Assembly: GCF_001050155.1 (NCBI RefSeq)
Contig: NZ_LFVY01000004.1
Coordinates: 62,001 to 126,000 of the forward strand
Reading direction: 5' to 3'
DNA length: 64,000 nt
Source of the DNA: Nitratireductor soli
GTDB taxonomy: Bacteria > Pseudomonadota > Alphaproteobacteria > Rhizobiales > Rhizobiaceae
Part shown: one piece after another, positions 12,284 to 31,594 of the stretch
Layout of the letters: each line of letters starts with the position of its first letter
Position numbering within the stretch: the first letter of the stretch is position 1
Notes under the pieces: model-generated
Seen by the model: only the letters and a program-made list of their open reading frames with translations
Told to the model about the DNA's origin: nothing
Databases searched by the model: none
Program-made: the position numbers and the translations under genes

Positions 12284-12306
12284 GTTCAAATTTGAACCCA
12301 TTGTTC
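12284..12306. promoter_or_regulatory. Tripartite operator, copy 1
   Basis: Read on the minus (gene) strand: GAAC-AATGG-GTTC-AAATTT-GAAC. The core GTTCAAATTTGAAC is a perfect 14-bp palindrome. It lies 14-36 bases upstream of the importer 1 binding-protein start, overlapping the probable transcription start or leader, as expected for a repressor. The same three-half-site pattern recurs at 16812, 17008 and 31572. Confidence 0.7.
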
Positions 12307-12384
12307 ATTAAATCTAAGCGTAAATTGCCGCTCGTTGCAAGAGCGGCCCCAATTATGCGGCTTTTTCGCATTTCCGGCCGGGTT

Positions 12385-13215
12385 TCAGGCGCTCGCTCCA
12401 TCCCCGGAGGATGGCTTCGGCAGGCCACCCAGCAGCCGCGTGATGGCGGCGGCGGTGCGCGCCACCTCCCGCCGCACGCCGGCCTCGATGCTGTCGATCC
12501 GGTCGGCGGAGGCCGCCTGGGTGACGTTGATGGCGGCCACCACATTGCCCTCGATGTCGCGCACCGGTGCGGCGATGCTGGCAATCCCCGTTTCGAAATT
12601 GCCGATCTGGACGATGGCTTGCGCATCACGGTCGCGGTGCCATTGCGAGATGAGCTCGCTCAGGCTGCGCGGCGTTTGCCCGGGCGCGTTCTGGTAGGTT
12701 TCATCACGATAGAGCCGCACCAGATCGTCCTCGCTGAGATCGGCGAGAAGCACGCGGCCCATCGTCGTTCCGGCGGCCGGCAGGCGGCTGCCGACATGGA
12801 CGATGCTGGCCAGGCCCATATGGCTGGGGACGCGCAGCATGTAGAGCACGAAGCGGCCGTCGCGCACGCCCAGATGCGCCGACCAGTCGGTGGCGTCGCG
12901 CAGCTTCTCAAGCTCGGGCAGGGCGATCTCCACCAGCTCGCGCGTCGCCAGATAGCCGTAGCCAAGCCGCAGCACCGCCGGCCCGAGCGTGTAGCGCGCG
13001 GTTTGCGGATTGTGCAGGAGATATCCCTGCTGCGCCAGCGTGTAGACCGTGCGGAAGGCTGCCGACCGCGTCGTGCCGAGGCGTCGCGCCACATCGGACA
13101 ATGTCATCTCGCGGTTTTCCGGCGTGAAGGATTGCAGAACCTGCAGACCGCGGATCAGGCCGGGGACGAGGTATTTGTCGTCGGATTGGCTCGGAAGGGG
13201 TGGTGTTTTGTCCAT
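12385..13215 (-). CDS. IclR-family regulator 1
   Basis: 276 residues. N-terminal winged helix (about 15-75; LVPGLIRGLQVLQSF, then MTLSDVARRLGTTRSAAFRTVYTL), then the IclR effector domain (about 90-265) with HVGSRLPAAGTTMGRVLLADL and AAPVRDIEGNVVAAINV. It resembles PcaR/PobR-like activators or repressors of aromatic catabolism. It is divergent from the bicupin gene with a 68-bp shared promoter carrying TAAAAC direct repeats, and lies upstream of and in the same orientation as importer 1. It is a candidate regulator of the bicupin/MBL pair. Its own promoter has no tripartite site. Confidence 0.9.
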   Translation of the reverse strand: MDKTPPLPSQSDDKYLVPGLIRGLQVLQSFTPENREMTLSDVARRLGTTRSAAFRTVYTLAQQGYLLHNPQTARYTLGPAVLRLGYGYLATRELVEIALPELEKLRDATDWSAHLGVRDGRFVLYMLRVPSHMGLASIVHVGSRLPAAGTTMGRVLLADLSEDDLVRLYRDETYQNAPGQTPRSLSELISQWHRDRDAQAIVQIGNFETGIASIAAPVRDIEGNVVAAINVTQAASADRIDSIEAGVRREVARTAAAITRLLGGLPKPSSGDGASA

Positions 13216-13239
13216 AAAACGCTGTCTAGCAGGTAAAAC
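13215..13239. promoter_or_regulatory. TAAAAC direct repeats in IclR1/bicupin promoter
   Basis: TAAAAC at 13215-13220 and 13234-13239, with starts 19 bp apart (about two helical turns), lie between the IclR1 start and the bicupin gene. GTTTT at 13204-13208 adds a third, inverted half. This is a possible IclR1 site, distinct from the GTTC/GAAC operator. It is a weak call based on position and repetition. Confidence 0.3.
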
Positions 13240-13283
13240 ATCGTTGATCTAGCCTCATCTCAACTCAGGAGAAAGGAAATCCG

Positions 13284-14231: not shown

Positions 14232-14349
14232 GGCATCCAGCCGACACTGAAGATCGCGCCCCGGCCCGACCGGCCGGGGTGGCGCACCAGGCTGCGCATG
14301 CCCGCACTCTTGCCGCAGCCTCGACAGGATCACGAGGAGGAGAGAAAAC

Positions 14350-15348: not shown

Positions 15349-15402
15349 TGTGGTGCGGGGTGACGGATTGCCGTCGTCCCGCTCGCTGCCCATCCTGACG
15401 GT

Positions 15403-15446
15403 ATTTTGCAGCCAAGTGGAATCACCTGGCGCCCGCATAGATGCGC
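15403..15446. repeat. Two-hairpin REP-like repeat, copy A
   Basis: After ATTTTGCA come two adjacent dyads. Arms 15411-15417/15424-15430 (GCCAAGT / ACCTGGC) pair with one mismatch around a 6-base loop, followed by CGCAT-AG-ATGCG at 15434-15445. The same layout, including the TTTTGCAG lead, occurs at 18122-18164. It lies in the 309-bp convergent gap between the MBL hydrolase and the flavin monooxygenase and could also act as a transcription terminator or mRNA stabiliser. Confidence 0.6.
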
Positions 15447-15528
15447 AGATTCAATAACTTACTGCTTCCTTTGTGCGTCCAAACACCGTATGCGACACAA
15501 TAGTTCGCATTCCGTTGCATCGATCCAA

Positions 15529-15650
15529 TGCGTGGTTCGACAAGCTCACCATGAGGGCGGCTGGACCTGGCAGGGAGCCTGATTCCGAGACGTTGCAGAT
15601 GGGTTCTGCCACCATATAATCTCCTCATGGTGAGCTTGTCGAACCACGCA
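15529..15650. repeat. Perfect 28-bp inverted repeat enclosing 66 bp (MITE-like)
   Basis: Bases 15529-15556 are the exact reverse complement of 15623-15650. The arm contains GGTTCGACAAGCTCACCATG, a sequence known to recur in many alphaproteobacterial genomes. The 66-bp interior has no recognisable gene. A short open frame crossing this region on the minus strand is not a credible protein. With copy A just upstream, almost all of the 15349-15657 gap is repeat DNA. Confidence 0.7.
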
Positions 15651-15657
15651 CGGCGCT

Positions 15658-16788
15658 CTAAGCCGCCTCGGTGAGTTCGGCCGCCCAGGCGTCGTATCCG
15701 TAGACCCAGTCGGCATTCGTGCCCTGCTTCAGCCAGTCATTGGCGAGCGATCCCTCTTGCACCTTGGCCGTGCGCGGGATGCGCGCTGCCTCGTAGCGCC
15801 TGAGCGCGCCGGCCACATTTGCCGGTGTTGCGCCGTCGAGGGCGCGGGCGAGCACCACCGCATCCTCCGACGCCATGCAGGCGCCCTGCGCCATGAACGG
15901 CACCATGGGGTGCGCCGCGTCGCCCAGAAGCGTGATGGCGCCTTCCGACCAGCGCTCCATCGGCTCGCGCACATGCAGCGCCGAGCGGGTGACGGTTTCG
16001 CAGGCATCGAGCAGGGCGCGCGCCTCGGGGTGGAAATCCGCGTAGGCCGCGCGCAATTCGCCGATATCGCCCGGCAGCGTCCAGCCTTCCTCGGTCCAGT
16101 CTTCCTGCGGCGTGGTGGCGAAGACGAAGATCTCGCTGCCCAAATTGAGTGGAAAGGTGACGATCTGGCGCTCCGGCGTCGGGCCCCACCATTTGGTGAA
16201 GGAATCAAGATTGGGAATGCCGTCGCCGCGCGCGCGGGGAAACACGGCGCGGTAGGAAACGAGGCCTGTGAAGCGCGGGTGGTCCTCGCCGAACAGCGAA
16301 TGACGCACCGCCGAATGGATGCCGTCGGCGCCGATCAGCAAATCGGCCTCGAACCGCGTGCCATCGGACAGGATGGCGGCCGCGCCGCCTCCATTGCGCA
16401 CTGCGGCCTCGACCTGCGTGGCAAACCGGATTGTCTGCGGCGCCAGCGCATTCTCCAGCGCGGCGAGCAGGTCGGCGCGGTGGATGGTGAGTTGCGGTGC
16501 GCCATAGCGTTCCTCGGCGGCCGTGCTCATGGGCAGGCGCGAGGTTTCTGCGCCGCTGTCCCAGGTGCGGCTGATGCGGTATTCGGGCCGGGCCGCCGTT
16601 TTGCGCAGCACCGCGCCGATGCCCAGCCCGTCAAGCGCGTGGACGGCGTTGGGAGTCAGGTTGACGTCGGCGCCGATGCGGCCGAAGGCGCGCGCGCGCT
16701 CGAATATCGTGACGTCGTGTCCCTGCTTTTGCAACGCGATCGCCGCTGCCATTCCACCGACGCCAGCGCCGGCTATGCCGATCTTCAT
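15658..16788 (-). CDS. FAD-dependent aromatic monooxygenase, NicC/salicylate-hydroxylase type
   Basis: 376 residues, single-component class A flavoprotein hydroxylase. FAD GAGVGG near 7-12, DG motif LLIGADGIHSAVR near 149-161, GD motif LLGDAAHPMVPFMAQGACMASEDA near 282-305. The C-terminal DWVYGYDAW matches the ending I recall for 6-hydroxynicotinate 3-monooxygenase (NicC), which hydroxylates with decarboxylation. No signal peptide, cytosolic. It is preceded by the tripartite operator at 16812-16834 and is divergent from the long operon starting at 17049. A decarboxylating ring hydroxylation of an aromatic or heteroaromatic acid is the best guess; salicylate-type substrates remain possible. 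Confidence 0.87.
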   Translation of the reverse strand: MKIGIAGAGVGGMAAAIALQKQGHDVTIFERARAFGRIGADVNLTPNAVHALDGLGIGAVLRKTAARPEYRISRTWDSGAETSRLPMSTAAEERYGAPQLTIHRADLLAALENALAPQTIRFATQVEAAVRNGGGAAAILSDGTRFEADLLIGADGIHSAVRHSLFGEDHPRFTGLVSYRAVFPRARGDGIPNLDSFTKWWGPTPERQIVTFPLNLGSEIFVFATTPQEDWTEEGWTLPGDIGELRAAYADFHPEARALLDACETVTRSALHVREPMERWSEGAITLLGDAAHPMVPFMAQGACMASEDAVVLARALDGATPANVAGALRRYEAARIPRTAKVQEGSLANDWLKQGTNADWVYGYDAWAAELTEAA

Positions 16789-16811
16789 TCGGGCTCACTC
16801 CCTGCCAAAAT

Positions 16812-16834
16812 GTTCAAATATGAACTTTAAGTTC
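16812..16834. promoter_or_regulatory. Tripartite operator, copy 2
   Basis: On the minus (gene) strand: GAAC-TTAAA-GTTC-ATATTT-GAAC, 24-46 bases upstream of the flavin monooxygenase start. It has the same order and spacing of half-sites as copies 1 and 3 in the orientation of the controlled gene. Confidence 0.7.
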
Positions 16835-17007
16835 AAAAAATAACTGTAATGATTGAGCGCCGTCCTGTCAACGCGCTGCGGATTCTGAGGGTGCAGGACG
16901 TGGCTCCCGTCCTGCGCAGGCCGTGTATGGCGCGGCTTCAAGCCTCTTCGCGCAACCTGAAAAGGAGGGCGGTTGACTCCCGTCTGGCGATGAGGCATCC
17001 TATTTTT

Positions 17008-17030
17008 GAACAATATGTTCTTATTTGAAC
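17008..17030. promoter_or_regulatory. Tripartite operator, copy 3
   Basis: On the plus strand: GAAC-AATAT-GTTC-TTATTT-GAAC, 19-41 bases upstream of the first gene of the long catabolic operon (17049). A TTGACT at 16973-16978 with CATCCT 17 bases later is a possible weak -35/-10 pair. If real, the operator would cover the +1 region, which points to repression. Confidence 0.7.
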
Positions 17031-17048
17031 ATCTACTGGGAGGTAGAG

Positions 17049-17351
17049 ATGGACGCCTTCAAAGACCGCCTCTCGCAGCGCGCCTTCGACACGGGCCGTC
17101 CCGGACTGGCGCATCAGTGCCGGGGTCGCGCGCTGGATGAGCGCGAAAACGCGCTGGCCGATGCCCTGATGGCGGTCTACGCCACCGGCGAACACGATTT
17201 TTCCGCCGTTGCGCGGCAATTGGCCGAGAAGGGCGTCGTTGCGCCGCGTTCGGGCCGGACCGACTGGACGGAAGCGCTGCTGGCCGAGGAGCTTGCAGCG
17301 ACGAACCGCGAACTTGACGCCGCTTACCAGGTCGATGGCTATGGCGCTTGA
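17049..17351 (+). CDS. Small recombinase-like helix-turn-helix protein leading the catabolic operon
   Basis: 100 residues, mostly helical. The central segment ERENALADALMAVYATGEHD, then FSAVARQLAEKGVVAPRSGR (about 31-70), resembles the helix-turn-helix of resolvase/invertase C-termini. Small proteins like this are annotated next to ring-hydroxylating oxygenase genes. It starts at an ATG 7 bases after GGGAGGT and its end overlaps the next ATPase gene by 17 bases, so it is translated as part of the operon. Whether it binds DNA, acts as an accessory oxygenase component or has another role is unknown. Confidence 0.75.
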   Translation: MDAFKDRLSQRAFDTGRPGLAHQCRGRALDERENALADALMAVYATGEHDFSAVARQLAEKGVVAPRSGRTDWTEALLAEELAATNRELDAAYQVDGYGA

Positions 17352-18111
17352 GTTTCGCTCGGTCACGAAGGAATTCACCACCGGAACGGGGCAGAACCTC
17401 GTTGCCGTCAACGACATCAGCTTCCGGGTGAACGAGGGCGAGTTCGTCTCGGTCGTCGGCCCGTCGGGCTGCGGCAAGAGCACCATCCTCAGCATGACAG
17501 CCGGCCTCTACCAGCCGACGCGCGGCGAGGTCTTCGTCAGCGACGATCTGGTGGGCGGGCCCAACGCGCATGTCGGCTTCATGCTGCAGAAGGACCTGCT
17601 TCTGCCCTGGCGCGACATCGTTTCGAATGTGGAGTTCGGGCTGGAAGCGCGCGGCGTGGCGAAATCGGAACGCCGCGACCGGGCCATGGCCGAGTTGAAG
17701 CGCTGCCAATTGTCCGGTTTTGAAAACCACTATCCCTACCAGCTCTCGGGCGGCATGCGGCAGCGCGCGGCGCTGGCGCGCACGCTGGCCATCAAGCCCG
17801 AGATCGTCCTGCTCGACGAGCCGTTTTCCGCCCTCGACGCGCAGACCAAGCTCCTGCTGCAGAACAGCTTTGCCGGAACGATCTCGCAAACCGGCAAGAC
17901 CACGTTGCTGATCACCCATGACCTGTCCGAGGCAGTGCTCATGTCCGACCGCATCCTGGTTCTTTCGGAGCGGCCAGGCACGGTCGTCGCCGAGATCAAG
18001 GTGGACCTGCCGCACCGCGAGGAGCCGCTCAGGCGCCGGGTGATGCCCGAGGTCAGCGACTATGCGGCACAGATATTCAAGCATCTGAAGCTCGAGGAAA
18101 AGGCCATCTGA
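17335..18111 (+). CDS. ABC transporter ATP-binding protein, NitT/TauT family (importer 2)
   Basis: 258 residues. Walker A GPSGCGKST near 43-51, Q-loop MLQKDLLLPW near 85, signature LSGGMRQRAALARTL near 138, Walker B VLLDEPFSALDAQTK near 158-172, and switch HDLSEAVLMSD. It belongs to the SsuB/TauB/ThiZ group, as does importer 1. The gene starts inside the end of the small HTH gene; ATG 17335 and 17341 are both possible. A 91-bp gap with two hairpins separates it from the binding-protein gene. Confidence 0.92.
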   Translation: MAMALEFRSVTKEFTTGTGQNLVAVNDISFRVNEGEFVSVVGPSGCGKSTILSMTAGLYQPTRGEVFVSDDLVGGPNAHVGFMLQKDLLLPWRDIVSNVEFGLEARGVAKSERRDRAMAELKRCQLSGFENHYPYQLSGGMRQRAALARTLAIKPEIVLLDEPFSALDAQTKLLLQNSFAGTISQTGKTTLLITHDLSEAVLMSDRILVLSERPGTVVAEIKVDLPHREEPLRRRVMPEVSDYAAQIFKHLKLEEKAI

Positions 18112-18121
18112 CTTTAGCTTT

Positions 18122-18164
18122 TTTTGCAGTCAGGTCGTTTCACCTGACGTCCGCATAAATGCGG
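18122..18164. repeat. Two-hairpin REP-like repeat, copy B (inside the operon)
   Basis: TTTTGCA is followed by GTCAGGT (18129-18135), a 6-base loop and ACCTGAC (18142-18148), then CCGCAT-AA-ATGCGG (18151-18164). Both dyads are perfect. It is homologous to copy A at 15403-15446. Its place between the ATPase and binding-protein genes suggests an effect on mRNA stability and a higher level of the downstream binding protein. Confidence 0.65.
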
Positions 18165-18202
18165 AAAAACAAAAAGGCACCAGAAAGCAAAGGGGAATTT
18201 TG

Positions 18203-19177
18203 ATGAAACGCATGCTTCGTTCGACCATCGCCGCCGCCCTGTTGGCGGTTTCCGCCACCGCCTCCTTCGCTGCCGAGAAGGTGACCTATCTGTTCCCGGC
18301 GCCCGACTTCCTGCCGGCCTTCGCACCCTTCCAGCTTGCCAAGAGCAAGGGCTATTTCGATGCGGCCGGCCTTGACGTCACCTTCCAGGTGGGCAAGGGC
18401 GGCGCCGATGTGGCGACCCAGGTGGCGGTCGGCAATGCCGATCTCGGCGGCGGCATCGGCGACACGCCGATCATCGTGCGCGCCAATGGGCTCGACATTC
18501 GCGGCGTGGCCCTGCTCGGCGGTCGCGGCCTGACCCAGCTTGCCTGGCGCAAGGACAGCGGCATCACCGGGCCGGCCGACCTGAAGGGCAAGTCGATTGG
18601 CGTTCTCGCCTTCCAGGACACCACCTATTACAATTTGCTCGGCGTTCTGGCCTCGGCCGAAATGACCAAGGCGGATGCCGACATCCAGGCGGTTGGCCCG
18701 GGCGGCATCATCCAGCTCACCATTGCCGGCAAGCTGCACGCCATGTCGGGCGTTCCCGAATGGATCGCCGCCATCGAGGCCGCCGGCGTCGAGATGGAGC
18801 AGATGCCCGTCGACGAAGTTTTCCCCGCCATGGCGCAGGCGATCATCGCCTCCGACAAGACCATTGAGGAGCGCCCCGAAGTGGTGCGCGGCTTCGTCGG
18901 AGCGGTGCTGAAGGCCGTTGCCGACATCGCGGCCGATCCGGCGCAGGCCGCCAAGGATTATGTCGCCGCCATGCCGCAGCACGCCGGCAAGGAAGCCGAA
19001 ATCGAAGGCATCCTGCGCTCCTATGCGACGCTGGTCTATCCGCAGGGTGAGAACCAGCCGCTCGGCTCTTTCGATCCCGAGCGCATCGCCAAGGTGCAGG
19101 CCTTCTATGTCGACAGCCGCATCGTCCAGACCGCCGTGCCGGTCGAGGACCTCTACACGAACGACTTCGTCCAATGA
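18203..19177 (+). CDS. ABC substrate-binding protein, NitT/TauT type (importer 2)
   Basis: 324 residues with a Sec signal peptide (MKRMLRSTIAAALLAVSATASFA, cleavage near 23). Mature part FAPFQLAKSKGYFDAAGLDVTF is the SsuA/NMT1-type opening. The C-terminus VPVEDLYTND matches the first binding protein's ending. Ribosome-binding site AAAGGGG. It overlaps the permease gene by 4 bases. The ligand is unknown and may be the same as, or related to, that of importer 1. Confidence 0.9.
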   Translation: MKRMLRSTIAAALLAVSATASFAAEKVTYLFPAPDFLPAFAPFQLAKSKGYFDAAGLDVTFQVGKGGADVATQVAVGNADLGGGIGDTPIIVRANGLDIRGVALLGGRGLTQLAWRKDSGITGPADLKGKSIGVLAFQDTTYYNLLGVLASAEMTKADADIQAVGPGGIIQLTIAGKLHAMSGVPEWIAAIEAAGVEMEQMPVDEVFPAMAQAIIASDKTIEERPEVVRGFVGAVLKAVADIAADPAQAAKDYVAAMPQHAGKEAEIEGILRSYATLVYPQGENQPLGSFDPERIAKVQAFYVDSRIVQTAVPVEDLYTNDFVQ

Positions 19178-20004
19178 CACAGGCCAGTTCCATGGAGGCC
19201 GGGGCAGGCGCCCCGGCCAAGGCAGCGAAACCCGCCATGAACACACAGCGCAACACGTTCCTTGCAAGCATGGCGCTTCTGGCGCTGGTGCTCCTTGCCT
19301 GGCAGTTCCTGCCGCCGGCGTTGGACGTGCCGAAATTCATCATTCCGACGGTCACCGACTGCCTGGCCGAGATGAAGCGCATGTGGGTCCAGGAGGGGCT
19401 TCTCGGCCACACGCTGTCGACCGCGCTGTACACGGTGCTCGGCTTTGCCATCGGCAGCCTGCTCGGCGCAGTGATCGGCTATCTGCTCGGCATGTCCGAG
19501 TTCTGGGAGAAGGTGCTGTCGCCCTATATCCTGGCATTGCAGATCGCCCCGAAGGTCGCCTTCGCGCCGCTCTTCATCATGTGGTTCGGCTACAATTCCA
19601 TGCCGAAGCTTCTGGTGACGGTGCTGATCGTCTTCTTCCCGGTGCTGGTCAACGTGCTGCAGGCGATGCGCACCGTCGACCGCGATCTGGTCAATCTGGC
19701 GCGTGCCTACAATCTTTCCCGCTGGGGCATTTTCCTCAAGGTCGAGATGCCTTCCACGCTGCCCAATCTGATGGCCGGGCTGCGCATCGCCTCGACGCTC
19801 GCCGTCATCGGCGTGACGGTCGGCGAGCTGGTCGGCGGCAACACCGGCCTCGGCTTCCTGATTTCCTACGGCGGCGGACAGGCCAACGCGGCGATGGTCT
19901 TCGACGCCATCGTGCTGCTCACCGTGATCGGCTTCCTGCTCTACACCGTGCTGGTGCGGATCGAGGAGCGGGTGCTGCACTATCTGCCCAAGGCCCAGCA
20001 ATAG
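19174..20004 (+). CDS. ABC transporter permease, NitT/TauT family (importer 2)
   Basis: 276 residues: a polar N-terminus of about 28 residues, then about six membrane helices. The segment APKVAFAPLFIMWFGYNS near 125-142 matches its paralogue in importer 1 (PKIALAPLFILWFG), and the coupling loop reads AYNLSRWGIFLKVEMPSTLPNLMAGL near 180-205. It completes importer 2. A 67-bp gap separates it from the Rieske oxygenase gene. Confidence 0.92.
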   Translation: MTQASSMEAGAGAPAKAAKPAMNTQRNTFLASMALLALVLLAWQFLPPALDVPKFIIPTVTDCLAEMKRMWVQEGLLGHTLSTALYTVLGFAIGSLLGAVIGYLLGMSEFWEKVLSPYILALQIAPKVAFAPLFIMWFGYNSMPKLLVTVLIVFFPVLVNVLQAMRTVDRDLVNLARAYNLSRWGIFLKVEMPSTLPNLMAGLRIASTLAVIGVTVGELVGGNTGLGFLISYGGGQANAAMVFDAIVLLTVIGFLLYTVLVRIEERVLHYLPKAQQ

Positions 20005-20071
20005 TCGGGACTTGCCACAACCATTGCCGCCGGAAGCGGGAGGCTTCCGGATATCCACGACGGAGACGGAC

Positions 20072-21112
20072 ATGACAGCCATCGACAAGAAATCGCTGAT
20101 CGAGGACCGGGTGAACAACGGCCTGCGCGGCCAATGGTATCCGGTGGCCAAGTCGGTCGAGATCAAGGCGACCAAGCCCTTTGGCACGCGGTTGCTCGGC
20201 GACAGGATCGTTCTGTGGCGCGACGCCGCGAACCGGCTGCGCTGCGTCGAGGATTTCTGCCCGCATCGCGGCGCGCCGCTTTCCTATGGCGAGATCCACG
20301 AGGGCAATATCGGCTGCCGCTACCATGGCGTCGTCGTCAATGGCGATGGCGTGGTGGTGCGGGTTCCGGCCATGCCCGAATGCGCGCTGGAGGGACGCAA
20401 GGCGCTGAAATCCTTCGAGGTCACGGAAGCGGGCGACGCCGTCTTCGTCTACGTGCCGTCGATCGAGCAGCCCGAAGCGCCGGAACTTGTGCTGCCGAAG
20501 GAACTGACGAGCGACGGCTGGACCGGTTTCCTGTGCACCGGCGAGTGGCAGGCAAACTACCGCTACGCGCTCGATAACCTCGCCGATCCGATGCATGGCT
20601 GCTACCTGCATGCGGAAAGCTTTACCCTGGCCTTCGGCTCCAAGCAGGATCTGATGAAGCTCGACAAGACCGATGCCGGCTTCCGCGTCAGCCGGGTGGG
20701 GCAGGTCGGCGAGAATTTCGACTGGACCGAATTCGAGGTGCATCCCGGCTCGATGTTCTGCTTCCTCGAAATTCCCTATCCGCCGGCGGCGGGACCGGGC
20801 GGCGTCTTCCGCATCATCGGCTTCGTCACGCCCGTCGACGCGACCACCTGCAAGGTCTTCTTCTGGCGCATGCGTCAGGTCTCGGGCCTTGCCCGCGAAA
20901 GCTGGCGCTTCCTCTACCGCGCCCGGCTGGAGCAGACCCATTGGGACGTGCTCGAACAGGATCGTGTCATGCTGGAAGGCATGCCGGACGATGCGCGCAA
21001 GCGCGAAATGCTCTACCAGCACGATCTCGGTGTCTCGCGCGTCAGGCAGGTGTTGACCCGCGCCGCCAAGAGCCAGGTCGAGGCCGAAATGGCAGAGGCC
21101 GCGGCCGAGTGA
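20072..21112 (+). CDS. Rieske non-heme iron oxygenase, alpha-subunit only
   Basis: 346 residues, a phthalate-oxygenase-like single-subunit type. The Rieske [2Fe-2S] motif is CPHRGAPLSYGE... with C63, H65, C82 and H85 (GCRYHG). The mononuclear iron motif DNLADPMHGCYLH gives bridging D172 and ligands H175 and H180, so both metal sites look intact. No beta subunit or plant-type ferredoxin reductase is adjacent. The only redox proteins in the operon are the FprA-type reductase and flavodoxin at 28421-30135. Such enzymes catalyse hydroxylation, dihydroxylation or O/N-demethylation. The substrate is unknown. Its stop overlaps the SDR start (TGATG). Confidence 0.92.
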   Translation: MTAIDKKSLIEDRVNNGLRGQWYPVAKSVEIKATKPFGTRLLGDRIVLWRDAANRLRCVEDFCPHRGAPLSYGEIHEGNIGCRYHGVVVNGDGVVVRVPAMPECALEGRKALKSFEVTEAGDAVFVYVPSIEQPEAPELVLPKELTSDGWTGFLCTGEWQANYRYALDNLADPMHGCYLHAESFTLAFGSKQDLMKLDKTDAGFRVSRVGQVGENFDWTEFEVHPGSMFCFLEIPYPPAAGPGGVFRIIGFVTPVDATTCKVFFWRMRQVSGLARESWRFLYRARLEQTHWDVLEQDRVMLEGMPDDARKREMLYQHDLGVSRVRQVLTRAAKSQVEAEMAEAAAE

Positions 21113-21849: not shown

Positions 21850-21856
21850 GGCTGTC

Positions 21857-22669: not shown

Positions 22670-22689
22670 GGCCTAGAGGAGGAATGACC

Positions 22690-23616: not shown

Positions 23617-24404
23617 TGCACTACGGATATGATGGCAAGGTGGCGGTGGTGACGGGCGGCTCGTCCGGCATCGGTCTCGCCACCGTCGAAACGCTGCTGC
23701 AGTCGGGCGCCAGCGTGGCGCTCTGCGCCCGCACGGAAAGCCGGCTGAACGATGTGGCGGCGGTGCTGGTGCGCGACCACGGCCAGGAGCGGGTCATGGC
23801 GCGCGCCCTGTCGGTTCTCGAACCGGACGCGGTCAAAAGTTTCGCCGGCGAGGTGGAGGCGCGCTTCGGGCGCTGCGACCTGCTCGTCAACAATGCCGGT
23901 CAGGGGCGCATCTCCACCTTCGCCGAAACCGGCGATGACGACTGGCGCGCCGAATACGAATTGAAGCTGTTCAGCCAGATCCACCCGACGCGCGCCTTCC
24001 TGCCGATGCTGCGCAAGGCAAAGGGAGCCATCGTCGCGGTCAACTCGCTGCTGGCCTACCAGCCCGAGCCGCACATGGTCTGCACCTCGTCGGCGCGCGC
24101 CGGCGTGCAGAACCTCGTCAAATCGCTGAGCGTCGAACTGGCGCCGGACGTGCGGGTGAATTCGATCCTGCTCGGCCTCGTCGGCTCGGGCCAATGGTCG
24201 CGCCGCTTTGCCGAGCGCGAGGACCAGAGCCAGAGCCGCGCCGACTGGTACGGCGCGCTGGCGGCCAAAAAGGGCATTCCGCTCGGCCGTCTCGGCAACC
24301 CGGCCGAAGCCGCCGCGGCAATCGCTTTCCTTGGCTCGCCGGCGGCGAGCTACATCACAGGCGCCCAGCTCGAAGTGTCGGGCGGCCTGTCTCGTTACAT
24401 TTGA
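23616..24404 (+). CDS. SDR-family protein 2 lacking the catalytic Tyr and Lys
   Basis: 262 residues. The Rossmann motif TGGSSGIG (13-20) and NNAG (92-95) are intact, as is the Ser of VNSLLAYQP near 144. Where classical SDRs have Y-x3-K, this protein reads CTSSARAG, giving Thr157 and Arg161. The cofactor probably still binds, but normal SDR proton relay is not possible; an altered mechanism or a non-redox role is likely. A subfamily with a TSxARAG motif exists in proteobacteria. The gene overlaps the VOC stop by one base and precedes the ThDP enzyme by 10 bases. Confidence 0.88.
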   Translation: MHYGYDGKVAVVTGGSSGIGLATVETLLQSGASVALCARTESRLNDVAAVLVRDHGQERVMARALSVLEPDAVKSFAGEVEARFGRCDLLVNNAGQGRISTFAETGDDDWRAEYELKLFSQIHPTRAFLPMLRKAKGAIVAVNSLLAYQPEPHMVCTSSARAGVQNLVKSLSVELAPDVRVNSILLGLVGSGQWSRRFAEREDQSQSRADWYGALAAKKGIPLGRLGNPAEAAAAIAFLGSPAASYITGAQLEVSGGLSRYI

Positions 24405-24414
24405 AGGACACGGG

Positions 24415-26088
24415 ATGAAACTCGAAACAATCACAGTCTCCGAGACGGTCGGGGATTTCATCGCCCGCTATCTCGCCGAGATCGGCGTCACCACCGTGTT
24501 CGGGGTCATCTCCATTCACAACATGCCGATCCTCGACGCCATCGCCCGCCAGGAGCGCATCCGCTTTGTGCCGTCGCGCGGCGAGGCCGGCGCCATGAAC
24601 ATGGCCGATGCCTATGCGCGCGTTTCGGGAGAGCTCGGCGTGTGCCTGACCTCGACCGGCACGGCGGCCGGCAATGCGGCCGGCGCGCAGGCCGAGGCGC
24701 TGACGGCGGGATCGTCGGTCCTGCACATCACCACGCAGGTCGATCTCGAATTCGCCGACCGCGACCGCGCCGCGATCCACGACGTGCCACGCCAGCCGGA
24801 AATGCTGCGCGGCATCTCCAAGGCGGTGTTCCGCATGTGGGACGCGAACGGCGCCGTCGGCGCGCTGACGGCGGCGGTGTCGGCGGCACTGTCGGCACCG
24901 ACAGGGCCTGTCAGCCTGGAAATTCCCGTCGACGTGCAGCGCAAGCCGGCGCGCTCGACCGCGCGCATCCACAAGCCGCAACCGACCCGGCCGATCGCCC
25001 CGGACACGGTGATCGACGAGATCGCCGAGCTGGTGAAGGCTGCCAAGCGTCCGCTTCTGTGGCTGGGCGGTGGCGCGCGCGCTGCCGGCAAGGAAGCCAC
25101 CGAACTGATGCGCCGCGGCTTCGGCATCGTCACCTCGACCAATGGCCGCGCCATCGTTTCGGAAGCCGAGCCGGCAAGCCTCGGTGCCTTCAACATGACG
25201 CCGGAGGCCGTCGAGCTCTACCAGAGCTGCGACCTGATGATCGTCGTCGGCTCGCGCATGCGCGGCAACGAAACGCGCAACAACAAGATGCCGTTGCCCC
25301 GGCCGCTGGTGCAGGTCGATGCCGACGCGGCGCAGGGCGGCCGCAATTATCCGGTCGAGGTGTTCGCCCATGGCGATGCAGCCGATACGCTGGCGCGCCT
25401 GCTCCAGCGCCTGCCGGACACGCTCGATACCGACACCAATTTGTCCTTCGACATCGCCCGCACGCGGGCCACGGCCGAGGGCCGGATGCGCGACGTGCTC
25501 GGGCCCTATCGCGTCGTCGCCGACACGCTGGCAGATCGCGTGTTTTCAGGCGGTCATCCGTGGGTTCGCGACGTCACCATCTCGAACTCGACCTTCGGCA
25601 ACCGCTATGTCCGCATCGCCGGGCCCAATCTCGGCGTCCACGCGCTTGGCGGCGGCATCGGCCAGGGCGTCGCCATGGGCGTCGGCGCGGCGGTTGCTTC
25701 GAAGGGCGCGAAGGCGATCACGCTTCTGGGCGACGGCGGCACGATGCTCGGCCTTGCCGAGATGATCACCGCCGTCGAGGAAGATGCGCCGCTCGTCTAC
25801 CTGCTGATGAACGACAAGGCCTATGGCGTGATCCAGAACATCCAGGACGCGCAATATGGCAGCCGTCGGCACTATTCGGCGCTGGCGACGCCCGATTTCG
25901 CCGGCTTCTGCAAGGCGATCGGCATGCCGCATCGGTTGATCAGCGATGTCGCGGAGTTTCCCGCCGCCCTCGACGAAGCCGTCACTGCAAAGGGGCCGCG
26001 CCTGATCGAGATCGACATGTGCGCCATCGGTCCGTTCAACGAAGCGTTCGCCGGCCCGCCGGCAGGCGCTGCCGGCAATGGGGAGTAG
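24415..26088 (+). CDS. Thiamine-diphosphate-dependent enzyme (acetolactate synthase/2-oxoacid decarboxylase type)
   Basis: 557 residues with the three-domain POX/ALS layout: N-terminal PYR domain (about 5-175; catalytic-type Glu in PSRGEAGAMNMADAYAR near 57), central domain (about 200-330), and C-terminal PP domain with GDGGTMLGLAEM near 441 and LMNDKAYG near 465 for Mg/ThDP. The start ATG follows GAAGGA. Upstream codons in the same frame belong to another gene and are not used. Carboligation, decarboxylation of a 2-oxoacid from ring cleavage, or C-C hydrolysis are all possible. It is followed after 4 bases by the aspartate-dehydrogenase-like gene. Confidence 0.88.
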   Translation: MKLETITVSETVGDFIARYLAEIGVTTVFGVISIHNMPILDAIARQERIRFVPSRGEAGAMNMADAYARVSGELGVCLTSTGTAAGNAAGAQAEALTAGSSVLHITTQVDLEFADRDRAAIHDVPRQPEMLRGISKAVFRMWDANGAVGALTAAVSAALSAPTGPVSLEIPVDVQRKPARSTARIHKPQPTRPIAPDTVIDEIAELVKAAKRPLLWLGGGARAAGKEATELMRRGFGIVTSTNGRAIVSEAEPASLGAFNMTPEAVELYQSCDLMIVVGSRMRGNETRNNKMPLPRPLVQVDADAAQGGRNYPVEVFAHGDAADTLARLLQRLPDTLDTDTNLSFDIARTRATAEGRMRDVLGPYRVVADTLADRVFSGGHPWVRDVTISNSTFGNRYVRIAGPNLGVHALGGGIGQGVAMGVGAAVASKGAKAITLLGDGGTMLGLAEMITAVEEDAPLVYLLMNDKAYGVIQNIQDAQYGSRRHYSALATPDFAGFCKAIGMPHRLISDVAEFPAALDEAVTAKGPRLIEIDMCAIGPFNEAFAGPPAGAAGNGE

Positions 26089-26092
26089 CGCA

Positions 26093-26917
26093 ATGCGGCT
26101 TGGATTGATCGGCTTCGGCAACATCGCGCTGACGCTGCTCGGGCAGCTCGCCGAGACGCTCGATGCGCCGCTGGAGCACTTGACGGTGCTGTCGCTGCCG
26201 GAGATGGAGGCAGAAACCGAAGCCCGGCTGAAGGGCGATTTCGCAAGCGTCGCCCGGGAGGCCGTCGTGGTCACCGATGCGCGGGAATTGCTCGCCCATC
26301 GGCCCGGTCTGGTGGTTGAATGTGCCGGGCACGCCGCTGTCGTGGCGCATGTGCCGCCAGTTCTGCACGCCGGCATCGACGTGGTGATCGTCTCCATCGG
26401 CGCCCTGTCCGATGCGGCGCTGGAGGCGGAATTGCGCGCGGCCGCCATTGCCGGCGGATCGCGGCTGATCCTGCCGGCCGGCGCGGTCGGCGGCATCGAT
26501 CTCCTGGCCGCACTTGGCGCTGCCGGGGGGCTTGAAGTCCGCTATCGCGGCTCGAAACCGCCGCTTGCCTGGAGCGGCACGCCGGCAGAACAGGCGCTTG
26601 ACCTCGGCGCGCTGAGCGAGGCCGTCACGTTTTTCACCGGCACCGCGCGCGAGGCGGCACGCGATTTTCCCAAGAACGCCAATGTGGCGGCGACGCTGGC
26701 GCTGGCCGGGGCCGGCTTCGAGGCGACGCATGTGGAACTGGTGGCCGATCCGGCCGCGCCCGGCAACGTCCATGAGTATTCGGTCGTCTCGCCGCTGGCG
26801 AAATACTCCATGCGCATCGAGAACCTGCCGTCGGCGGGCAACGCCAAGACATCCGTTTCGACGGTCTACAGCGTGCTGCGCGAGATCCGGAACCGGATCG
26901 GTCCGGTGGCCATCTGA
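26093..26917 (+). CDS. L-aspartate-dehydrogenase-like NAD(P) enzyme
   Basis: 274 residues. N-terminal Rossmann motif GLIGFGNIA near 3-11, ECAGHAAVVAHVPPVL near 78-93, and the C-terminal DUF108-type stretch FPKNANVAATLALAGAG near 193-209 seen in NadX-type aspartate dehydrogenases. There are no nadA or nadC genes here, so a role in NAD synthesis is not indicated. Within this operon it may release ammonia from, or aminate, a C4 or ring-cleavage product, which hints at a nitrogen-containing substrate. ATG 26093 has GGGGAG 7 bases upstream. Confidence 0.85.
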   Translation: MRLGLIGFGNIALTLLGQLAETLDAPLEHLTVLSLPEMEAETEARLKGDFASVAREAVVVTDARELLAHRPGLVVECAGHAAVVAHVPPVLHAGIDVVIVSIGALSDAALEAELRAAAIAGGSRLILPAGAVGGIDLLAALGAAGGLEVRYRGSKPPLAWSGTPAEQALDLGALSEAVTFFTGTAREAARDFPKNANVAATLALAGAGFEATHVELVADPAAPGNVHEYSVVSPLAKYSMRIENLPSAGNAKTSVSTVYSVLREIRNRIGPVAI

Positions 26918-26930
26918 GGTGGAGGCGAAC

Positions 26931-28424
26931 ATGATCGAATTGCCGCAGAACAAACTTTTTGTCGCTGGCGAGTGGGAAGAGGGAACGGGCGCGGAGATCA
27001 CCTCGATCTTTCCTGCCGACGGCAGCGTCAACCGCGTGCTGCGCGGTGCTTCGTTGGCCGATGGCGAACGTGCCATCGAGCGCGCCAAGCGGGCACAGAT
27101 GGACCCGGCCTGGCGCAATCTGAAGCCGCATGAGCGGGCACGTTTCCTCTATGCCATCGCCGACGGCATCGAGGCGAACGCCCAGCGCATCGCTCACATC
27201 CAGAGCCGCGACACGGGCAAGACCTTGCGCGAGACGGGCGCGCTGGCCGCATCGGCCGCCGGCACGTTCCGCTATTTCGGCGCGGTGCTCGAGACCTCCG
27301 ACGAGGCGCTGACCGCGCAGCGCGGCAACGCGCTGACCATGTCGGTGCATGAGCCGCTGGGACTTGTCGGCGCGATCACGCCGTGGAACTCGCCGATTGC
27401 CTCGGACGCGCAGAAGGTTGCCCCGGCGCTCGCCGCCGGCAATGCCGTCCTTCTGAAGCCGGCCTCCTGGTCGCCGCTCGTCTCTCTGGAACTGGCGCGG
27501 ATCATCGAGGCGTCGGGCCTGCCCAAGGGATTGTTTTCCGTGCTTCCGGGTTCGGGCCGCGAAATCGGTAATCTGCTGGTCGAGCATCCCGACATCGCCA
27601 AGATCAGCTTCACCGGTGGCACCGAAACCGGCCGGGCGCTTGCCGTCAAGGCGGCGCAAAAACTGATGCCGGTATCCCTGGAACTTGGCGGCAAGTCACC
27701 GACCATCGTTTTCGCCGATGCCGATATCGAGCAGGCGCTGGCCGGCGTGCTGTTCGGCATCTTCTCCTCGACCGGCCAGAGCTGCATCGCCGGCGCGCGC
27801 CTGTTCGTCGAGCGGCCGATCCATGCGCAATTCGTCGAAAAGCTGGTGGCGGCGACGAAACGCCTGAAGGTCGGCCATCCCTTCGAAGCGGACACCCAGG
27901 TCGCGCCGATGGTGCATTTCGACCATCGCGACAGCGTTGCCGAGCATGTGCGCAAGGCGCGCGACGAAGGGGCCGAGCTGCTGGCCGGCGGGACCGCACC
28001 TCAGGGGCCGGATTTCGACAAGGGCGCCTACTACATGCCGACGATTCTCGCCGGCGTCGCCAACACGGCGCGCATCTGCCGCGAAGAGGTGTTCGGACCG
28101 GTTCTGGTGGTCCTTCCGTTCGACGACGAAGCCGACGTCATCGCCCAGGCGAACGACAATGAATATGGTCTGGCCTGCGGCATCTGGACCCGCGATTTCC
28201 CCAAAAGCTGGCGCGTCGGCACGGCCATCAGCGCCGGCACGGTCTGGGTCAACACCTACAAGCAGTTCTCGATCTCGACGCCGTTCGGTGGCGAGAAGGA
28301 GAGCGGCATGGGCCGCGAGAAGGGCCGCGACGGCATCCGCGCCTACATGGCGCAGAAATCGTTCTACACCGATCTGTCGGGCATGCCGCACCCCTGGGCG
28401 GCGGCCACGGTGCAGGCGTCATGA
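26931..28424 (+). CDS. Aldehyde dehydrogenase
   Basis: 497 residues, normal for the NAD(P)-dependent ALDH superfamily. Motifs: ITPWNSPIA near 149, KPASWSPL near 174, FTGGTETG near 226-233, catalytic Glu in LELGGKSP near 250-257, catalytic Cys in GQSCIAGAR near 282-290, and EEVFGPVL near 386. It should oxidise an aldehyde formed in the pathway, for example by the ThDP enzyme. Start ATG after GGTGGAGG; the frame is open far upstream but that part overlaps the previous gene. It overlaps the FprA-type gene by 4 bases. Confidence 0.93.
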   Translation: MIELPQNKLFVAGEWEEGTGAEITSIFPADGSVNRVLRGASLADGERAIERAKRAQMDPAWRNLKPHERARFLYAIADGIEANAQRIAHIQSRDTGKTLRETGALAASAAGTFRYFGAVLETSDEALTAQRGNALTMSVHEPLGLVGAITPWNSPIASDAQKVAPALAAGNAVLLKPASWSPLVSLELARIIEASGLPKGLFSVLPGSGREIGNLLVEHPDIAKISFTGGTETGRALAVKAAQKLMPVSLELGGKSPTIVFADADIEQALAGVLFGIFSSTGQSCIAGARLFVERPIHAQFVEKLVAATKRLKVGHPFEADTQVAPMVHFDHRDSVAEHVRKARDEGAELLAGGTAPQGPDFDKGAYYMPTILAGVANTARICREEVFGPVLVVLPFDDEADVIAQANDNEYGLACGIWTRDFPKSWRVGTAISAGTVWVNTYKQFSISTPFGGEKESGMGREKGRDGIRAYMAQKSFYTDLSGMPHPWAAATVQAS

Positions 28425-29671
28425 GCCGCGCCGTCGCCATTGTCGGCTCGGGCCCGTCCGGCTGCTATCTGGCGCAGGCGCTGCTGAAGGCGGCGCCGGA
28501 GCTGCGGCTCGACCTGGTGGACCGCCTGCCGGTGCCTTATGGTCTGGTGCGTTATGGCGTTGCTCCCGACCACCAGGGCACCAAGGGCGTTATCCGGCAG
28601 TTCGAGCGCCTGTTCGAGCGCCAGGGCGCCGGCTTCGTCGGCAATGTCGCCGTCGGCGAGGATGTCGGCCTCGACGATCTGCGCGCGGCCTATGACGCCG
28701 TGGTGCTGGCCGCCGGATTGTCCGCCGACCGCACGCTCGGCATTGCGGGCGAGACGCTGGAGGGCGTCCATCGCGCCGGCCGCCTGACGCGCGCGCTCTA
28801 CGAGCATCCCGACGCCGAACCGCTTCCGGAACTTGGCCCCCGTGTGATCATCATGGGCAATGGCAACGTCGCCATCGACATAGTGCGCCTGCTTGCCAAG
28901 ACGCCGGACGAACTGGCCGGTTCCGATCTCGGTCCCGTGCCGTCCGCCTGGCTGGCGGGGTCCGGCATCGAGGAGATCGAGATTGTCGGGCGCTCGCCGG
29001 CGGCGGCGGCGAAGTTCGATGCGGTCATGGTCAAGGAACTGGCGAAACTCGAAGGGGTGCGCATTCGCGTTCTGGGCGCCGGCGCCAGCGATGATCCGGA
29101 AGGCGCGAAGAAGATCGCTGCGCTCGAGGCGATCGACGGTCACGGTGCCGGCCCGCGCCGCATAACGTTCCGTTTCGGCCTGACGCCGATGGAACTTGCC
29201 GGCGAGGGCGGGCGCATCAGCGAGGCGCGTTTTCAGGATGCGCAGGGCAGGGCCATCGCCTTGCCATGCAGCGCCTTCGTCACGGCGATTGGTTTTGGCG
29301 CGGAAGGCGTGTTGCCGCGCGACGCGCTCATTGGTTCGGCAGCCGACCGGGAGGCGGGCGTCCTTGCGCCCGGCCTCTATGCGACCGGCTGGTTCCGTCG
29401 CGGGCCGCAGGGCACCATTCCCGACAACCGCGCCGACGCGCAGCTTCTGGCAACGCGCATCCTGGCCGATCTCGAGGCGGAAGGCACGCCGGCGCAAAAG
29501 CCCGGCCGGAACGCTTTCCCTGCCTGGGCGAGGGCGGTCGGCTACGAAGGCTGGAAGCGCATCGATGCCGCCGAAATCGCCGCAGCGCCGGAAAACCGTT
29601 GCCGCGTCAAGATCGCCTCGCGCGAAACCATGCTGGCGTTGGCCCTTCAGACAGAGGAGTGTCCTCAATGA
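28421..29671 (+). CDS. FprA/adrenodoxin-reductase-type ferredoxin (flavodoxin) NADP reductase
   Basis: 416 residues. FAD site VGSGPSGCYLAQ near 7-18, LPVPYGLVRYGVAPDHQGTK near 38-57 (typical of the adrenodoxin reductase family), NADP site IIMGNGNVAID near 143-153, and GWFRRGPQGTIPDNR near 324-338. It carries electrons from NADPH to an iron-sulfur protein or flavodoxin. The flavodoxin gene overlaps its end by 4 bases, and the probable final acceptor is the Rieske oxygenase of the same operon. Rieske systems more often use FNR-C/ferredoxin-type reductases, so this pairing is unusual. Confidence 0.92.
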   Translation: MSRAVAIVGSGPSGCYLAQALLKAAPELRLDLVDRLPVPYGLVRYGVAPDHQGTKGVIRQFERLFERQGAGFVGNVAVGEDVGLDDLRAAYDAVVLAAGLSADRTLGIAGETLEGVHRAGRLTRALYEHPDAEPLPELGPRVIIMGNGNVAIDIVRLLAKTPDELAGSDLGPVPSAWLAGSGIEEIEIVGRSPAAAAKFDAVMVKELAKLEGVRIRVLGAGASDDPEGAKKIAALEAIDGHGAGPRRITFRFGLTPMELAGEGGRISEARFQDAQGRAIALPCSAFVTAIGFGAEGVLPRDALIGSAADREAGVLAPGLYATGWFRRGPQGTIPDNRADAQLLATRILADLEAEGTPAQKPGRNAFPAWARAVGYEGWKRIDAAEIAAAPENRCRVKIASRETMLALALQTEECPQ

Positions 29672-30135
29672 ACATCATGCTTTTGTACGGCACCGAGACC
29701 GGCAATGCCGAGATGCTGGCCGAGGACATCATGGCCGAGCTCGACGGCGATCACGATGTGGAATGCCGCAATCTGTCGGATTTTGCGCCCGACGAATTCG
29801 ACCGCAGCCGGCTGCACATGATCGTCTGCTCGACCTATGGCGATGGCGAGTTGCCGGCATCGGCACAGCCCTTTGCCGAGGCGCTGAAGGCGGCCGCGCC
29901 CAGCCTGTCGGGCATCCACTTCGCCATCTTCGGCCTTGGCGACAGCGAGTACGAGGAGACCTTCAATTTCGGCAGCAAGGGGCTTGCCGAATTGCTGGCC
30001 TCGCACGGCGCGGTGCAGATCGGCGAGCGCATCACCCACGATGCCTCGGGCAGCGACATGGCCGAGGATCTGGCGTTTCCCTGGGCCGCGCGGATGGTGG
30101 CGCTTGCCGAGGAAAAGATCGGCGAGAACGCCTGA
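29668..30135 (+). CDS. Flavodoxin-domain protein
   Basis: 155 residues, short-chain flavodoxin size. FMN phosphate loop YGTETGNAEM near 7-16, STYGDGELPASA near 55-66 (first aromatic loop), and FGLGDSEYEETFNFGSKG near 91-108. Sandwiched by 4- and 1-base overlaps between the FprA-type reductase and the pentapeptide protein. It probably shuttles electrons from the reductase to the Rieske oxygenase; no ferredoxin gene is seen in the operon. Confidence 0.92.
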   Translation: MNIMLLYGTETGNAEMLAEDIMAELDGDHDVECRNLSDFAPDEFDRSRLHMIVCSTYGDGELPASAQPFAEALKAAAPSLSGIHFAIFGLGDSEYEETFNFGSKGLAELLASHGAVQIGERITHDASGSDMAEDLAFPWAARMVALAEEKIGENA

Positions 30136-30734
30136 TGAAGGCCGCCGAAATCCGTGCGCTGGTTTCGGTCCCGTGGCGGCACGGCGACTGCGTCGACCTT
30201 TCAGGCGTCGTCTGCGACGGGCCGCTCGATCTCGCCGGGCTCGACCTGACGGGCGTTAACTTCACCGACGCATCCTTTCCTGACGGGATCGATGCGGCAG
30301 GTGCCCGGTTTCTCGGCGTGAGCTGGTTCAGCGGCGTGCGTTTCGGCGGCGTGGCCGGCTTTGCGCGGGCGCTGTTCACCAATGATGCGCGCTTCGACAA
30401 CGCCGCCTTCGCTGCCGCAGCGCAATTCGACGCGGCGGAGTTTCGCGGCATTGCCCGGTTCGACGAAGCGCGGTTCGCTGGGAATGCGGATTTCCGGGGC
30501 ATCGCGTGCTATGGCAATTTCTCGCTGCAGGGCGTCCGGATGGGTGGGCCGGCGTCGTTCCGGCAGGCCGAGTGGCTGGGCGGGCTGTGGTGCCAGGATG
30601 CGCGATTGCCCGAGGGCGTTGATTTCTCGCTGACCCAGGTGCATGGCCGATTGTGGCTGCGCCGCGCGCTGGCGGGAAACGCGCCGCTACGTGATCGAGC
30701 CTTCACCCTGTCTTACGGCTACAGCTATAATTGA
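30135..30734 (+). CDS. Pentapeptide-repeat protein closing the catabolic operon
   Basis: 199 residues. From about residue 22 onward the sequence has a five-residue periodicity centred on Phe/Leu with Ala two positions before (LDLAGLDLTGVNFTDASF; later FDNAAFAAAAQFDAAEF), which predicts a right-handed quadrilateral beta-helix. No signal peptide or membrane helix. The start overlaps the flavodoxin stop by one base, so it is co-translated. Its last 10 bases overlap the convergent IclR gene. Function unknown; it could be a scaffold for the redox chain, but this is speculation. Confidence 0.82.
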   Translation: MKAAEIRALVSVPWRHGDCVDLSGVVCDGPLDLAGLDLTGVNFTDASFPDGIDAAGARFLGVSWFSGVRFGGVAGFARALFTNDARFDNAAFAAAAQFDAAEFRGIARFDEARFAGNADFRGIACYGNFSLQGVRMGGPASFRQAEWLGGLWCQDARLPEGVDFSLTQVHGRLWLRRALAGNAPLRDRAFTLSYGYSYN

Positions 30735-31543
30735 TCGGCCGACCAGCCGCGATAGCCGAGCGCTTCCGACATGGCGCGCGCGGCGGCCTTCAACTCGTGC
30801 TCGATCTTGTCCACCAGCGGGCTGTCATCGGCGAAGACGCTGGCGTGGCCGGTCACGTTGATGGCGCCGACGGCGCGCGCCTGGTGATCGTGGATGGCGA
30901 CGGCGGCCGAGCCGATCTCCCGTTCGAAATTGGCGACGCTCCACGCCATGCCGCGCACTCGGTCCGCCTGCAACTGCGCTTCCAGATCCGCCAGCGAGGT
31001 GCGCGTCTTGGTGGTGAACGATTCCATCACCTGGCCGGCATAGAGCGCGCGCAGCGATGCCTGCGGCAGCTCGGCCAAGAGGATGCGCCCGATGGTCGTC
31101 GCGTGCGCCGGCAGGCGCGTGCCTTCGCGCACCGTGCTGGCGAGGTGCGAGTTCGGCGTCTCGCGCGCCAGATAGACGATCTCGCGGCCTTCGAGGACGC
31201 CGAGATGGGCCGAAAGATTGAGCGACTGGACCAGTTGCTTCAGGAACGGCCGCGCCACCTGAAGGATGCCGCGCTCGTTGAGCGCTTCGGAAGCGAGCGC
31301 GATGAGCCCCGTGCCGAGCCTGTATCCGCCATCGTCGGCGATCTGCTCCAGAATGCCTTCGGCCTCGAGCGTGGCGAGCAGCCGGATCAGCGTCGTGCGG
31401 TTGATGTTGAGCGCCTTGGCGGCGCCGCTGATGTTGCGGCAGCGATTGCCGGCGGCTACATAGCGCAACAGCGCGACCGCGCGCACCACCGGCGGAACCA
31501 CGTAGAGCGGCTCCTGTGTCTCGTTCTGCTGGGTCTCGGCCAT
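30725..31543 (-). CDS. IclR-family regulator 2
   Basis: 272 residues. Winged helix at about 17-75 (PVVRAVALLRYVA, then NISGAAKALNINRTTLIRLLATLEAEG) and an IclR effector domain at about 85-265 (VREGTRLPAHATTIGRILLAEL; AVAIHDHQARAVGAINVTG). It lies at the end of, and convergent to, the long catabolic operon. Its promoter holds a degenerate copy of the tripartite operator (31572-31594), so it is the best candidate for the protein that reads that operator and controls importer 1, the flavin monooxygenase and the long operon. It shares only family-level similarity with IclR1. Confidence 0.9.
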   Translation of the reverse strand: MAETQQNETQEPLYVVPPVVRAVALLRYVAAGNRCRNISGAAKALNINRTTLIRLLATLEAEGILEQIADDGGYRLGTGLIALASEALNERGILQVARPFLKQLVQSLNLSAHLGVLEGREIVYLARETPNSHLASTVREGTRLPAHATTIGRILLAELPQASLRALYAGQVMESFTTKTRTSLADLEAQLQADRVRGMAWSVANFEREIGSAAVAIHDHQARAVGAINVTGHASVFADDSPLVDKIEHELKAAARAMSEALGYRGWSADQL

Positions 31544-31571
31544 TATGATTCTCGCTGCACTGCGCGTATTT

Positions 31572-31594
31572 GCACAGTTTAATCATATTTGAAC
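31572..31594. promoter_or_regulatory. Tripartite operator, copy 4 (degenerate)
   Basis: Plus strand: GCAC-AGTTT-AATC-ATATTT-GAAC, 29-51 bases upstream of IclR2. The ATATTTGAAC end is identical to copy 2 and the spacing is preserved, but two of the three half-sites deviate. Weaker autoregulation is a reasonable reading. Confidence 0.5.

Follow-up and report, generated by a model that had tools for sequence, protein, structure and literature searches.

Operators made of three boxes in alternating orientation have been described for the IclR-family regulators PcaU, PobR and HmgR and predicted for 32 orthologous groups, and tandem palindromic sites with 18–22 nt between centres are given for 94 groups (Suvorova and Gelfand 2021, PMC8222616). 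In the same source, the third box is cited as required for PcaU binding, the three-box consensuses are GKTYCRYW3-4RYGRAMC and TGRAACAN1-2TGTTYCA, with ranges of spacing allowed, and a title in the reference list terms PcaU and PobR transcriptional activators. Here we analyse a 64,000-nt stretch of contig NZ_LFVY01000004.1 of Nitratireductor soli (positions 62,001 to 126,000; hereafter the window), which contains a catabolic island with two IclR-type regulators, IclR1 and IclR2, and with the three-box motif GAAC-N5-GTTC-N6-GAAC. This motif is probably the operator of IclR2, a PcaR/PcaU/PobR-like protein that, judging from the sequence, would repress the promoters of an importer, of a flavin adenine dinucleotide (FAD)-dependent aromatic monooxygenase (FMO) and of a catabolic operon until an inducer binds, and would also regulate its own gene.

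Like the sites of PcaU, PobR and HmgR, the motif comprises three alternating half-sites of the GTTC/GAAC type, and it is likewise linked to an IclR regulator and to aromatic catabolism (PMC8222616). It differs from the published three-box consensuses in that its four-base words are separated by 6 and 5 bases, where the consensuses have 7–8 and 3–4 between comparable bases; we treat this spacing as descriptive, and not as defining, because PMC8222616 itself allows ranges. An earlier examination of the window, made without database searches (the sequence-only reading), was aware of no IclR operator described with such a layout, a claim of novelty that fails because three-box alternating IclR operators were already published (PMC8222616); the orthologous group of IclR2 may itself be among the groups of that study. 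Set against that source, the operator adds one more, well-supported case to a known kind of three-box IclR site, and only its spacing (a 19-bp direct repeat) is tighter than in the published consensus. IclR2 is also related by sequence to the IclR protein in the TtgV–operator complex (PDB 2XRO; E 5.7e-17 with 2xrn/2xro); TtgV has a different regulon and operator, and any parallel in binding mode is conjectural.

Perfect copies of the motif in the window and the genome

The window contains three perfect copies of the motif (Table 1), compared with none in 100 dinucleotide shuffles. This agrees with the sequence-only reading, as does the uniform orientation of the copies relative to the genes that they precede: SBP1 (the substrate-binding gene of importer 1), the FMO gene and orf95, the first gene of the operon. 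The distances from the end of the operator to the start codon are, respectively, 13, 23 and 18 nt, and the upper end of the 14–46 bases given previously was too high. The N6 spacer is WWATTT in the three copies of the window, as had been noticed, but this does not extend to all relatives, where ACATTT, ATATGT, AATAAT and ATTTTT also appear.

Taken together, the boxes make up two palindromes, GTTC-N6-GAAC and GAAC-N5-GTTC, which overlap in the middle box, with a direct repeat of 19 bp. The FMO site has, in addition, a fourth and imperfect box that the sequence-only reading had overlooked, detected as a match with one mismatch at 16822–16844; GTTA occupies this place in 8/8 Nitratireductor FMO sites, and the box overlaps the putative −10 hexamer. 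Counting this box, the FMO site becomes a tandem palindrome whose two centres are 19 bp from each other, resembling the tandem palindromic IclR sites of PMC8222616; elsewhere in the regulon no fourth box is conserved.

A scan of the whole 5.1-Mb genome, proposed in the sequence-only reading as a check, returned four perfect matches, three of them in the island, against one for the reversed-pattern control; the single stray match, on contig C11, is GC-rich and lies within a 605-aa open reading frame (ORF). A loosened scan yielded 32 matches versus 15 in the control, and these are largely chance. Chance or coding constraint might also be invoked for the sites in the island, since matches with up to three mismatches are as common in the window as expected (49 versus 42.65). 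For the three perfect sites, however, chance is refuted by an expectation of zero together with conservation upstream of corresponding genes across orders (see below), which leaves this explanation with a negligible probability. The same genome also contains two GTTC-N6-GAAC palindromes 21 bp apart (C10:19596–19630), between ORFs for an AraC-type regulator and an alpha/beta hydrolase, which are perhaps the tandem operator of another regulator.

Conservation of the sites and their linkage to IclR2

We tabulated 44 sites, comprising 29 distinct 23-mers, from 20 genomes or records of Hyphomicrobiales, Rhodobacterales and one Vibrio plasmid; ten of them precede SBP1, 13 FMO and 21 operon heads. 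All 12 box bases are kept in 42 of these sites and 11 bases in the other two, the spacing of the boxes is invariant and the outer box matches the other two in conservation; as the rows were gathered by motif scans, part of this box conservation comes from selection. In a gene-first test, in which a perfect site was sought within 200 bp upstream of each cluster gene, we found it for SBP1 in 10/11, for orf95 or the operon in 18/19 and for FMO in 13/14 rows. For two of the FMO rows (G568 and G625) the site found is the neighbouring divergent one, and their own sites have one mismatch; the orf95 miss, in G773, is due to an extrapolated start. For the other cluster genes except IclR2, many of them internal to operons, only one of 295 upstream regions contained a perfect site; it lies 77 bp ahead of the stretch that matches ATP2 in G773.

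The comparison of related islands, also suggested beforehand, bore out the conservation of the motif at corresponding promoters in Nitratireductor and beyond. The island is syntenic across the genus where contigs allow, and 8 of 10 Nitratireductor genomes, including the source genome, contain an IclR2 orthologue. When the intergenic regions at SBP1 and at FMO/operon are aligned across five genomes, and the region upstream of IclR2 across eight, the boxes and promoter-like hexamers prove to be kept where much of the surrounding DNA has diverged. Corresponding promoters also carry the motif in the family genomes G568, G625, G623, G715, G773 and G642, in the last of these before orf95. Likewise, Mesorhizobium sediminum and an Aquamicrobium metagenome-assembled genome contain three near-identical cluster sites each, Sulfitobacter sp. 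HI0040 contains one, and the motif is found on plasmids of Pseudosulfitobacter sp. DSM 107133, Vibrio nigripulchritudo, Paracoccus sp. MA and Nitratireductor sp. OM-1. On the V. nigripulchritudo plasmid, the monooxygenase match is in three pieces (16510–17569) and the thiamine diphosphate (ThDP) enzyme is annotated as two coding sequences (21238–22825 of the analysed stretch); because these genes look broken, the cluster may be decaying, though both of its operators are perfect.

The sequence-only reading also reported a degenerate copy before IclR2. The copy is present, with three mismatches in the 12 box bases, but it is flipped with respect to the three perfect copies, which had not been stated; on the gene strand it reads GTTC-N6-GATT-N5-GTGC, followed by AAATA. 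It carries no weight alone, because of the near-expected number of matches with three mismatches given above, and it becomes credible through conservation, given that GTTCAAATATGA upstream of IclR2 is kept in 8/8 aligned Nitratireductor genomes. Moreover, GTTC-N6-GNNN-N5-GNNC is the best match at the own promoter of 16/17 IclR2 homologues, G773 being the exception. By a second measure, covering 21 IclR2 upstream regions, 15 have the site there in flipped orientation with respect to the gene; the Sulfitobacter and Pseudosulfitobacter promoters have a better match unflipped, and G001 and G781 have a better match at another place. The 14-mer AATCATATTTGAAC, identical to the core of this site, has one further copy in the genome (ca. 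C1:353067), downstream of an ORF for an AMP-binding enzyme.

We scanned 394 genomes of the family with the strict motif and for IclR2 at E<=1e-90, with up to six candidates scored in each genome. The motif was found in ten genomes, IclR2 in 12 and both in eight (Fisher p=1.6e-12, only a guide because the genomes are related), and the reversed-pattern control gave 0 among the rows listed. Genome G773, with the motif but without IclR2 at this cut-off, contains an IclR2 homologue (55% identity) inside the cluster, while G568, G625 and G642, with IclR2 but without the strict motif, contain perfect boxes with other spacer sequence. The match in G405 lies within an ORF resembling an iron-ABC permease, as named from sequence, and was taken as chance. 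A class-wide search for IclR2 in 385 genomes, again with up to six candidates scored in each, retrieved the source genome only.

These GTTC/GAAC words resemble those of LexA, and orf95 is itself a helix-turn-helix protein of the operon, so that LexA, orf95 or an unlinked IclR protein might be thought to read the sites. This is very improbable in view of the linkage of the motif to IclR2 in the family scan. The alphaproteobacterial LexA box is a GTTC-N7-GTTC direct repeat, whereas boxes in the same direction are here 19 bp apart, not 11; as to orf95, nothing matches it at E<=1 in the stretch from the Vibrio plasmid, where two perfect sites are present.

TIGR02431 (PcaR/PcaU/PobR) is the best NCBIfam model for both IclR regulators, as best-scoring model only, with 142.1 bits for IclR2 and 174.1 for IclR1 versus a curated cut-off of 284.75. 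IclR1 also adjoins the site before SBP1 and accompanies many clusters, and could read the GAAC/GTTC sites instead of, or besides, IclR2. We consider this quite improbable, because the best match to the motif upstream of IclR1 has 3–5 mismatches in 17/17 cases, and a different conserved operator, perfect in 11/16 clusters, is found there. Besides, the motif is kept where IclR1 is missing: the whole G773 genome contains no IclR1 at E<=1e-50 and keeps the motif and the IclR2-like gene, and in the Vibrio stretch, with an IclR2 homologue (56%), the IclR1 query matches only that homologue (32%). IclR2 scores above the gathering thresholds of both PF09339 (HTH_IclR) and PF01614 (IclR_C), and its recognition-helix region, NRTT, is shared by 10/10 IclR2 homologues, down to 47% identity; that of IclR1 proteins is RSAA in 4/4, preceded by S or T. 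In all, co-occurrence, the copy at its own promoter and the clusters with the motif but without IclR1 make IclR2, as had been proposed, the best-supported candidate reader, a conclusion about linkage and not about binding, and support a single predicted regulon of importer 1, FMO, the operon and IclR2.

Promoter geometry and proposed mechanism

A TTGACA-like −35 hexamer (5 or 6 of 6 bases) starts 30–40 bp before the first box in 37/44 sites, compared with a mean of 2.5 and a maximum of 8 in shuffles; likewise, the best −10 hexamer, with a spacer of 16–18, ends 5–9 bp before the first box in 37/44. Of the promoters in the window, an independent consensus scan accepted that of FMO alone (Table 1). 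Because these hexamers stand just before the boxes, transcription should start at or near the first box, and from this position we infer that IclR2 is a repressor. PcaU and PobR differ in this respect, since they have three-box sites and are termed activators (PMC8222616); IclR2, which scores best with their model, as does IclR1, could also activate with its inducer, but this is unlikely with boxes that lie, in most sites, downstream of the hexamers, where a repressor is expected.

As a repressor, IclR2 would occupy, without inducer, the boxes directly after the −10 hexamers of the importer 1, FMO and operon promoters, blocking initiation. Inducer binding would free the operator of IclR2, and import and breakdown would be switched on together, while binding to the weaker, flipped site at its own promoter would provide autoregulation. 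A tandem double palindrome would be expected if an IclR tetramer binds, the form that we suppose for IclR2, and the three boxes supply most of one; at FMO the imperfect fourth box would complete it. Ahead of its own gene and the cupin gene, IclR1 would separately read GTTTT-N6-AAAAC-N14-AAAAC. The sites, their conservation, their placement with respect to promoter-like hexamers and their linkage to IclR2 were observed directly, while binding, repression, the tetramer, the inducer and the assignment to IclR1 are all predictions. More tentatively, a single IclR might adopt two alternative dimer arrangements on the overlapping palindromes in the tighter 19-bp register, and the polarity of the sites (strong and forward at catabolic genes, degenerate and mostly reversed at the regulator) might be meaningful, which is possible but rather doubtful. 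If true, and given an IclR1 operator with the same 19-bp register, two three-box IclR circuits, orthogonal to each other, would coexist in the island.

Several observations weigh against repression of the regulon by IclR2. The −10 matches are poor (2–5 of 6), which makes the position of the transcription start approximate, and neither of the G773 sites has a clear −35. The copy at the IclR2 promoter is weak, with 8–9 of 12 box bases in the eight Nitratireductor rows, and in G773 and Vibrio there is no convincing copy or none at all; likewise, no site precedes SBP1 in Paracoccus or FMO in G773. With up to six candidates scored per genome, IclR2 homologues may have been missed, and the 38 IclR-like candidates seen at first look in the source genome make another regulator possible. 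G002 contains IclR2 but no island-like operator in its genome, and its cluster runs off the end of a contig, a pattern that fits either cluster loss or an assembly gap. Finally, the compared sequences are related and not independent, those of G781 and G783 being nearly identical at the sites. In G002, IclR2 and the end of the operon lie at the contig end, and there is no IclR1 at E<=1e-50.

A second predicted operator and the genes of the island

The region between IclR1 and the cupin gene contains the other motif, GTTTT-N6-AAAAC-N14-AAAAC, predicted to be IclR1's own operator and likewise overlooked in the sequence-only reading. The five clusters where it is not perfect show 1–3 mismatches (G003 was read by eye), and its AAAAC boxes are 19 bp apart, the same register as in the GAAC/GTTC motif. 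Conservation of its first box may be partly coding, because in the window the box falls within IclR1 codons 3–4. Because the IclR1 promoter carries this different conserved operator, the island appears to hold two IclR circuits, and not all of its genes belong to the GAAC/GTTC regulon; the single regulon advanced in the sequence-only reading thus stands for importer 1, FMO, the operon and IclR2, but not for the IclR1/cupin region.

Table 1. Features of the catabolic island, with positions in the window
Feature	Position	Strand	Remarks
Importer 1: SBP1 (NMT1 family), ATPase, permease	9690-12270	-	Pfam on SBP1; ATPase and permease named from sequence
Three-box operator, 12/12	12284-12306	-	before SBP1, importer 1 substrate-binding gene
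Putative SBP1 promoter TTGCAA-18-TAGATT	12311-12340	-	
IclR1, second IclR regulator	12385-13215	-	predicted to read a different operator; best NCBIfam model TIGR02431
Predicted IclR1 operator GTTTT-N6-AAAAC-N14-AAAAC	13205-13239		between IclR1 and cupin gene
FAD-dependent aromatic monooxygenase (FMO)	15658-16788	-	best NCBIfam model 3-hydroxybenzoate 6-monooxygenase, below cut-off
Three-box operator, 12/12	16812-16834	-	before FMO
Fourth, imperfect box (TAAC/GTTA)	16841-16844	-	extends FMO operator to 16812-16844
Sigma70-like FMO promoter TTGACA-17-TACAGT	16843-16871	-	directly upstream of operator; consensus match only
Putative operon promoter TTGACT-17-CATCCT	16973-17001	+	weak -10
Three-box operator, 12/12	17008-17030	+	before catabolic operon
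Catabolic operon	17049-30734	+	first part: HTH_62 small protein, importer 2, Rieske oxygenase, SDR, hydrolase, extradiol-type VOC, SDR; remainder: ThDP enzyme, aspartate dehydrogenase-like, aldehyde dehydrogenase, FAD reductase, flavodoxin, pentapeptide protein
IclR2, predicted reader and repressor	30725-31543	-	best NCBIfam model TIGR02431 PcaR/PcaU/PobR, below cut-off
Degenerate three-box site, 9/12	31572-31594	+	before IclR2, flipped relative to gene

The enzyme set of the island (Rieske oxygenase, extradiol-type VOC, SDRs and FMO, among others) points to an aromatic or heteroaromatic substrate, and the cluster also contains two NMT1-type importers and a cupin gene. The name NicC-like, previously given to the monooxygenase, is not specific in view of its best model (Table 1). 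The first gene of the operon, orf95 (17049–17336), encodes a 95-aa HTH_62 'recombinase-like helix-turn-helix' protein and is the operon head in 19 clusters tested. Among the papers listed for homarine and for Nitratireductor, Rieske enzymes and IclR, we recognised none that deals with this cluster.

Although no new regulatory principle is revealed, the analysis defines a precise and testable regulon for a catabolic cluster not matched to a described pathway, and names its likely repressor and operator. The 44 natural copies of the three-box site, 29 of them distinct, would be useful in tests of three-box recognition by IclR proteins and in the search for the inducer.

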